Part shown: positions 27,701-30,700 of the stretch, piece by piece | How positions within the stretch are numbered: position 1 is the stretch's first letter | Layout: each line of letters begins with the position of its first letter | DNA from: Echinarachnius parma | Lineage: Eukaryota; Echinodermata; Echinoidea; Clypeasteroida; Echinarachniidae | NCBI GenBank assembly: GCA_037951105.1 | Contig: JBAMJV010010722.1 | Location: 1 to 64,000 of the forward strand | Direction: 5' to 3' | Length of the DNA stretch: 64,000 nucleotides | Position numbers and translations under genes: made by a program | The notes under the pieces: generated by a model | What the model was told of the DNA's origin: nothing | The model's input: only the letters and a program-made list of their open reading frames with translations | Databases searched by the model: none

Positions 27701-30700
27701 AGGCTACTATGAGTTTAAAGACCTGCCCCCTGTGTTAAAAAAAAATTGTATCCGTATCTATAATTTCTTTGATTAATACTAATTAATGTGGTTTAATTCT
27801 GTTTCCTATTTCAGCATTTCCAACCTGATAGCCCTAGAGCTAAGAGAGAACCTACTCAAAGTGCTACCTGATTCCCTCTCGTTCCTCGTCAAACTCGAGA
27901 TGCTGGACCTCGGAAGCAATGAACTGGAAGAACTGCCTGAGACTCTTGGTGCGTTGCCCAACCTACTGGAGCTATGGCTTGACTGCAATCAACTAACCAT
28001 ACTGCCCCCGGTAAGTCCCACATGTACAAATCGCGTTGGAGTACGGCTTTTGTTCTGAATGTACTTGTTTTAGGCATATTATTGTTGTTGTTGGTCAAGT
28101 TAGAGATGTTAGTTGGATCTCGAAAGTAATGAACTGGAAGAACTGCCCGAGACTCTTGGTGCATTGCCCAACCTACTGGAGCTATGGCTTGACTGCAATC
28201 AGCTAACCATACTGCCCCCGGTAAGTAGCCATACTGCCCCCGGTAAGTCCCACTTATATCAATCTGTGTTGGGGTATGGCTTTTGTTCTGAATGTACTTG
28301 TTTTAGGCAGATTGTTGTTGTTGGTCGAGTTTGACTCGAGTTAGAGATTGTAGTTTGATCTCGGAAGTAACAAGCTAGAAGAGCTACCTGACACTCTTGG
28401 TGCGTTGCCCAACCTACTGGAGCTATGGCTTGACTGCAATCAGCTAACCATACTGCCCCCGGTAAGTCCCACTTATATCAATCTGTGTTGGGGTATGGCT
28501 TTTGTTCAGAATGTTCTTGTTTTAGGCAGATTATTGTTGTTGTTAGTCAAGTTAGAGATGTTAGTAGGATCTTGGAAGTAACAAGCTAGAAGAGCTGCCT
28601 GAGACTCTTGGTGCGTTGCCCAACCTACTGGAGCTATGGCTTGACTGCAATCAGCTAACCATACTGCCATCGGTTACATAACCCGCTTTTGTTAGTGCAC
28701 GCTAAGATGACGTTTCATACGGAAACATGGCAGCCTCCAGTGCTCAGTCAAAACAGTTGATAGTGGTTTAAAAAACATTGATTATTTCCATTATTATTGA
28801 TACCCAAGAGGAAGTATGCGACTAGAAGTGACCGGAATTCTGCACTTATCAGTTACAGCAAGCGAAAATTCCAGCATTTCCTTCCGCTTTAAAGTAAGAT
28901 TATTTTTAATTTTTTTGGTTGAGTTAGAGATGTTAGTTGGATCTCAGAAGTAACGTGCTAGGGATACACTGTCCACCCTACTGGACTGAAACCAGCTATT
29001 GGTACTGCCCTTGGTAAGTCCCACATGTATAAATTTATGTTGGTTTTGTTCCAACATCTGAGTGTAATCGTTTAACAGAAAATTCATATCACAGTTGTCT
29101 GATCTCAATAAAATTCGCTACTTAATTAAACAATTCAATGTTTATTTTATCCTTCCATCTCCAGGAGATTGTTAACCTAGGCTACCTGACATGTCTGGAC
29201 GTGTCAGAGAACAACCTGGAAGCGCTCCCAGATGAGATCGGTGGACTTCAGAGCCTGACGGATCTCACCCTGTCACACTTATTTGATCTCGATGTTTAAC
29301 AAAGTTCTCTCCTATACTTTGTATGTTTTGCCCTTTCAACTTGGTAATTTGACATTTCTGAGAGTTTCTTATAACAGTATTATGTATTTCTTGGAATGTC
29401 AACAACTCAATATTCGTTCTGTCCTTCCATCTGCAGGAGATTGGTAACCTAGGCAACCTGACGTGCCTGGACGTGTCGGAGAACAACCTGGAATCGCTCC
29501 CAGGTGAGATCGGTGGACTTCAGAGCCTGAGGGATCTCACCATGTCACAGTTGTCTGATCTCAATGAAGTTCTATTCTTAATTTCACCTTTTATCTTTGA
29601 ATATTTACAATTCAATATTCGTTCTGTCCTTCCATATCCAGGAGATTGGTAATCTAGGCAACCTGACTTGTCTGGACGTGTCGGAGAACAACCTGGAATC
29701 GCTCCCAGATGAGATCGGTGGACTTCAGAGCCTGACGGATCTCACCCTGTCACAGAACGCCATAGAGACACTACCAGAAGGAATCGGTAAGCTTTGTGAA
29801 CATTGCTACTTTTATATCAGTCTGCCTTTTGTAGCCTTTGGAATCTCTCCATCTCAAAATTCCTCTCTGAATGTTACCATCCAATCTCAATGTCACATTC
29901 CTCTGTTGCATATATATGTTGCATAATATGTGTTTTTACCTTTTATTTCTTATCCCATTGCCTACTGAAACCTGTTGGGCCCTGTCTTAACTACATGGGT
30001 TATAAAATACAGTAGGGAACAGGTTAAATTGATAGAGAGCAAACAAATGTGTTCAATGTTCCAAAGGGTTAGCCGTAATAAATATGTTTGCTAATTAATC
30101 CGCTTTAAACACATGTACAGTATACACTGATGGTATATGATACTAAAAATTGAACAAATATTTAGCTTCTCCTGTAAAAGTGAAACCTAGTAGCTAGCGG
30201 GATGGGTAAGGGGAGGGCTACAGTGGGATGGGTTCCCCTCTCCCCTCAATAACATAACAAAACAGTAAAAAAACATAAGGATAAAAATAAAGAAAGTATT
30301 CTATTGTACCTTCCCCTAGCAATAATTTAGAGGAGGGGTCACATGCCTCCATATAGTTTGTCAAAAACAATTACAAACAAATTAGGGTAAAAACTACCTA
30401 GACAGTGCCCCCCCCCCCCCCCCAATTAACTTGGATTCTCCCCCATTCAATCAGACCATTCCTCCACCACTCCGCCACTGCCAGTAGCATGTTCTAAGTG
30501 GCCATTGCGATGGAGCTACTTTCCTTTTATTTGTTTCTTGGTGTCAAATATACTGGAGATGTTTGTTTGAGTTAGATGCGAATTGCGTGTTTGATTGCGC
30601 GGGGGAAAGGTTCCTCGCCGCAACGCATAACAAGTAACGTGATCTGACAGGCAGTGTCTCTGTCAGGCAGTATTCGATGCACATTTTCCACGGTGGCAAA

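Follow-up and report, generated by a model that had tools for sequence, protein, structure and literature searches.

A survey of duplications made by DNA repair in the human genome describes copies of exons, of intron splice sites and, in four cases, of partial exon/intron donors, and the duplicated exons tested in its account showed no coding constraint (PMC2671141). Tandem exon copies missing from annotation are described as common in animal genes (PMC9013439). Among the papers covered by a literature search on duplication of exons and splice sites, intron gain and sea urchin repeats, none dealt with partial copies of scribble exons, and the one scribble hit was an influenza review. Here we describe such copies in a 64,000-bp stretch of the Echinarachnius parma genome (contig JBAMJV010010722.1, positions 1-64,000; hereafter the window). 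They are probably non-coding debris left behind by local tandem duplication within scribble, a reading to which we assign a probability of about 0.83.

The array shares with the short local duplications of the human survey the small-scale, nearby copying of exons and splice sites within one gene. That survey, by its own description, left out strict tandem copies (PMC2671141), whereas the scribble units are in tandem, amplified, mosaic with their parent and different in number between contigs. Mutually exclusive tandem exons are likewise adjoining same-strand exon copies within one gene, as described in PMC9013439, but no extra scribble copy is complete with both splice sites. Where introns arise by tandem genomic duplication, a splice signal is copied too, according to PMC4974935, and the duplicated exonic segment supplies the two ends of the new intron. 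In scribble the source exon already ends at an intron and the copies lie inside that intron; they contribute decoy donors and acceptors, with no new intron. The units stand head to tail on the same strand beside their source, as in a local tandem array, and their borders ignore the exon limits. The array is a genuine feature of a known kind, mosaic tandem exon debris whose extent differs from one contig of the assembly to the other, and it offers no good evidence of a function today.

Exons of a scribble-like gene were mapped to the forward strand of the window by tblastn with a human SCRIB protein query, and the splice signals fit. Leucine-rich repeat (LRR) exons follow in order near 12.7, 17.3, 27.8, 29.6, 38.4, 40.1, 51.9 and 52.7 kb. 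Pfam and a sequence search of solved structures confirmed the leucine-rich repeats, although neither names scribble by itself. Exon C has a cag acceptor before 27815 and a gtaagt donor from 28011; its first base completes a codon and its end is a codon boundary. The assembly comprises 1.20 Gb in 14,790 contigs. Its COX1 match, found with a query that was itself echinoderm-like, is read best with the echinoderm mitochondrial code (205 of 214 residues, compared with 204 for table 24 and 195-198 for tables 2, 5 and 13), with AAA as N, AGA as S and ATA mostly as I; on this evidence an echinoderm is probable and a hemichordate less so. A protein search of this genome, with 150 of 919 candidates scored, gave scribble-like matches on contigs C10700 and C4157 only and no third scribble locus. 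Protein search also returned at least 101 genome matches, many of them long LRR open frames and often contig pairs with equal scores, which suggests a large LRR receptor family in an assembly that holds both haplotypes.

Exon C is followed by four partial copies on the same strand (c1-c4), with start spacings of 210, 241, 211 and about 372 bp (Table 1). Direct repeats sought in 27000-30000 fell into a family with the first three spacings (D1) and one with the 372-bp spacing to the last copy (D5), TRF reported a 211-bp array at the copies, and same-strand self-matches at 60-500 bp distance numbered 0 in 20 simulated (Markov-1) windows. The array is genuine and far above chance, and these three results bear out the tandem partial copies of exon C claimed in the earlier note. 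The span given there was right, with exon C now ending at 28010 and the exon-like part of c4 at 29013; its spacings of about 205, 230, 221 and 372 bp are replaced, except for the last, by the measured values.

Table 1. Exons, partial exon copies and inserted repeat in the window
Feature	Position	Strand	Evidence
Exon C of scribble, complete, 196 nt	27815..28010	+	tblastn, splice sites, frame
c1, partial exon C copy, 4-bp TTAG insertion, two donors (28221, 28243)	28091..28220	+	sequence comparison
c2, partial exon C copy, further 11-bp insertion, donor at 28462	28321..28461	+	sequence comparison
c3, partial exon C copy, in-frame TAG near start, without donor	28543..28668	+	sequence comparison
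Dispersed repeat inserted in c3	~28672..28892	+	77 matches among the 40 candidates scored, out of 3287; two unrelated contigs
c4, heavily decayed partial exon C copy, donor at 29014	28915..29013	+	sequence comparison
d1, partial exon D copy, acceptor present, without donor	29165..29277	+	direct repeats, sequence comparison
d2, partial exon D copy, acceptor present, without donor	29437..29550	+	direct repeats, sequence comparison
Complete exon D of scribble, gtaagc donor starting at 29787	29642..29786	+	tblastn, splice sites
5′ partial copy (acceptor side) of exon starting at 51939	51807..51866	+	sequence comparison
Donor-bearing 3′ partial copy of exon 52691-52873	52979..53068	+	sequence comparison

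Every c copy starts within exon C, without its acceptor and 5′ third, and all except c3 have kept the donor, which reads GTAAGT in C, at both sites of c1, and in c2 and c4. The second donor of c1 arose through a 22-bp internal duplication. All c copies carry a 4-bp TTAG-type insertion relative to C that breaks the frame, and the further 11-bp insertion of c2 is common to the copy on contig C4157. Over the 3′ exon part (27942-28010), identity to exon C is 97% in c1, 99% in c2 and 94% in c3, whereas c4 reaches only 71% with 18 gap columns. The near-identity that had been claimed for the 3′ halves of all four copies thus holds for c1-c3 and fails for c4. Recurrence of the donor with about 85 bp of intron, another earlier claim, applies to c1 and c2, whose intron tails are 86-89% identical to that of C, and to the donor of c4 (tail 66%), but not to c3. 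Both the donor and the intron tail of c3 were replaced by the dispersed repeat, which accounts for the wide last spacing (372 bp). The view in the earlier note that an LRR exon multiplied inside the scribble gene itself is supported. The dispersed repeat is present here as one arm; elsewhere in the genome it often forms close inverted pairs about 30-80 bp apart, and it resembles a foldback or MITE-type element.

The intron that holds c1-c4 also holds the two partial copies of exon D, which were absent from the earlier note; both end within exon D. Two exons further downstream have partial copies as well (Table 1). At 51729-51997, the window holds a single partial copy of the 51.9-kb exon, compared with two to three partial matches on C4157. 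Within 52773-53119, the 3′ partial copy of exon 52691-52873 is 86% identical, with 9 synonymous and 3 non-synonymous differences.

Contig C4157 bears the same gene and is collinear with positions 1-53000 of the window, but carries C, a single c copy and only a short piece of D; between anchors common to both, the intron measures 1407 bp in the window and 234 bp on C4157. Exon C differs between the two at 7 of 196 bases and encodes an identical protein. Across 8295 aligned bases in four intron blocks the divergence is 4.0%, and other parts differ greatly in length. Five more LRR locus pairs, each on two contigs, have mismatches that range from below 0.1% for one pair, in its long alignment, to about 9% for another. 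Contig C4157 is best read as the other haplotype; that it would be a recent paralogue seems less likely. If it is the other haplotype, the number of c copies varies between haplotypes, four against one.

Local tandem arrays are abundant in the window: 37 of them cover 30.9% of it, against 0 in 20 simulated windows, and their median shortest spacing is 176 bp. Array spacings in the window (1-64000) and on C4157 (78501-177770) cluster at about 150-225 bp, with medians of 173-178 bp, near the nucleosome repeat, and many arrays are strongly diverged. Four of the eight mapped exons overlap an array, where 2.99 are expected (P = 0.34), so exons are not enriched in arrays; the exon C array is nothing special within this window. 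At a fixed score, 36 arrays were found in the 64 kb of the window and 47 in 99 kb of C4157, compared with 7 in 38.6 kb at five other loci (3, 0, 0, 2 and 2 arrays in 6.6-8.0 kb each), which were chosen for large LRR coding stretches and are a poor control. Given the lower density at these loci, the abundance of arrays in the window may not hold genome-wide. For the comparison between contigs 33 of the 37 arrays were used, the last four lying beyond the aligned part, and one lacked anchors. Among the 21 arrays anchored within 300 bp on both sides, 8 differ by at least 100 bp in length and 12 by less than 30 bp, although insertions of other kinds may contribute to these differences. With its right anchor 669 bp away, the exon C array falls outside these 21. 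A 151-bp-period array at 22523-23186 is missing at the collinear place on C4157, and similar sequence occurs elsewhere on that contig.

The copies are mosaics. Compared with C, c2 differs at 17 of 54 positions in its 5′ part and at 2 of 72 in its 3′ part (Fisher p = 1.5e-5); the corresponding counts are 15/54 and 3/72 for c3, 10/54 and 2/72 for c1, which becomes C-like further upstream than the other copies, and 16/54 and 3/72 for the C4157 copy. The latter resembles c4 in its 5′ part (2/45 differ) and C in its 3′ part (4/69 differ, against 19/51 from c4). Its intron tail is only 53-54% like that of C, which places the end of the exchanged tract near the donor, so that short conversion fits this copy better than simple crossing-over. 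A four-gamete count gave 50 of 91 pairs of sites, including intron columns in which c3 is non-homologous; in an exon-only recount it was 9 of 21 pairs without column 26, and 5 of 15 when the doubtful column 123 was also removed. Purifying selection as the cause of near-identical 3′ halves was rejected because the adjoining 5′ parts have diverged (15-17/54 vs 2-3/72 in c2, c3 and the C4157 copy). The split in divergence and the conflicting shared states favor exchange with exon C over such selection: near-identical 3′ halves beside diverged 5′ halves fit unequal crossing-over or conversion with exon C.

We infer the following order of events. An old duplication with breakpoints in exon C and the following intron would have left a half-exon with a donor and without an acceptor, and later unequal pairing with exon C could have added units. 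Crossing-over or conversion may then have written exon C sequence over the 3′ half of each unit, the 5′ halves staying old and diverged; crossing-over of a misaligned half-exon with exon C would yield at once an old 5′ part, a fresh 3′ part and a fresh intron tail. Insertion of the dispersed repeat would have broken the third unit. The same process may have produced the acceptor-only half-exons of D in the same intron. Exon recognition normally spans both ends, and half-exons with one splice site should escape it. On this ground the half-exons would be expected to leave with the intron between exons C and D during splicing, and the copies are presumably skipped.

Coding potential was assessed by scanning for in-frame exons from every AG in the stretch around each copy. 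This gave 3 options in c1, 4 in c2 and 18 in the C4157 copy (several through weak donors), and no open in-frame exon in c3 or c4. Read-through from C ends at an intronic stop codon. The frame of d1 is closed by a stop ahead of D, whereas that of d2 reaches D in the wrong phase and then terminates. The longest option in both c1 and c2 has 36 codons and is the basis for supposing that these two units are in use today as cassette exons, with the AG in the TTAG insertion as splice acceptor (positions 28113 in c1 and 28354 in c2). The frame from this AG to the donor is indeed open in c1, c2 and the C4157 copy, and its 108 nt join C and D in frame. However, the candidate AG is purine-rich, with 31% (c1) and 44% (c2) upstream pyrimidine compared with 75% for exon C. 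The repeat has 23 residues, of which 36 is not a multiple. Over 42 codons, c2 and the C4157 copy differ by 3 synonymous and 8 non-synonymous changes (0 and 6 in codons 1-18), as expected without constraint, although comparisons with c1 and c3 are more mixed, and c1 owes an excess of synonymous changes to its C-type tract. The most diverged copies thus seem to differ neutrally, and with no such exon in c3 and c4 we regard present use as very improbable. A functional alternative exon was rejected as the main reading since, among the copies in the window, only c1 and c2 offer options, with weak AGs. No copy keeps the exon C acceptor, and none is a full exon flanked by both splice sites. The suggestion in the earlier note that the copies are a possible source of new repeats or alternative exons is therefore unsupported as a present function, the acceptor and 5′ third being absent and the AGs weak.

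An older function is conceivable: the copies may derive from a once functional second exon C, alternative or mutually exclusive, that was later frameshifted, lost its acceptor and was amplified as debris. This is suggested by a modest synonymous excess between C and the copies and would agree with the neutral differences among the most diverged copies. By codon-aware hand count, the shared changes are 10 synonymous to 0 non-synonymous (P = 1.7e-4), or 10:3 with ambiguous sites charged against the excess (P = 0.012), and the automatic count is 8:2 (P = 0.017 at 0.42); the signal comes from just 18 codons in a hand-made alignment. The expected synonymous share for a constrained exon and a neutral copy is 0.42, a neutral value of 0.27 being too strict, which makes the case weaker. 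Copies of other exons give 9:3 (exon 52691-52873, P = 0.022), 9:8, 3:4 and 3:3, so that a common cause is equally likely, and no complete second exon was found in the genome by the protein search (150 of 919 candidates scored). We consider this origin unlikely. Slightly more doubtful is a combined version, in which the array is the relic of an ancient constrained alternative exon C that fell out of use and then multiplied, its 3′ halves being replaced by sequence of the living exon, while two units of one haplotype could splice as 36-codon cassettes; if true, it would imply haplotype-dependent scribble isoforms. Mis-joined or falsely expanded reads could also generate an array, and the assembly is fragmented and seems to hold both haplotypes. 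But the units differ by substitutions, unit-specific insertions and a repeat insertion, and C4157 independently has a c copy with the same TTAG insertion. The different copy number on that contig also argues against a simple assembly error, and we hold a pure artefact to be the least probable explanation.

Read as debris of local tandem duplication, the array may serve as a compact natural record of how exons duplicate and mostly fail. It suggests that copies with one splice site can accumulate in an intron without an obvious new exon, and that exchange with the parent may keep parts of them fresh. Near-identity of exon copies is, as a caution, not evidence of function, and half-exons can mislead gene prediction in animals of high heterozygosity. 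Since arrays overlap four of its eight mapped exons and a second contig can be set beside it, the window would offer a fair test bed for the way splicing disregards decoy donors and acceptors.
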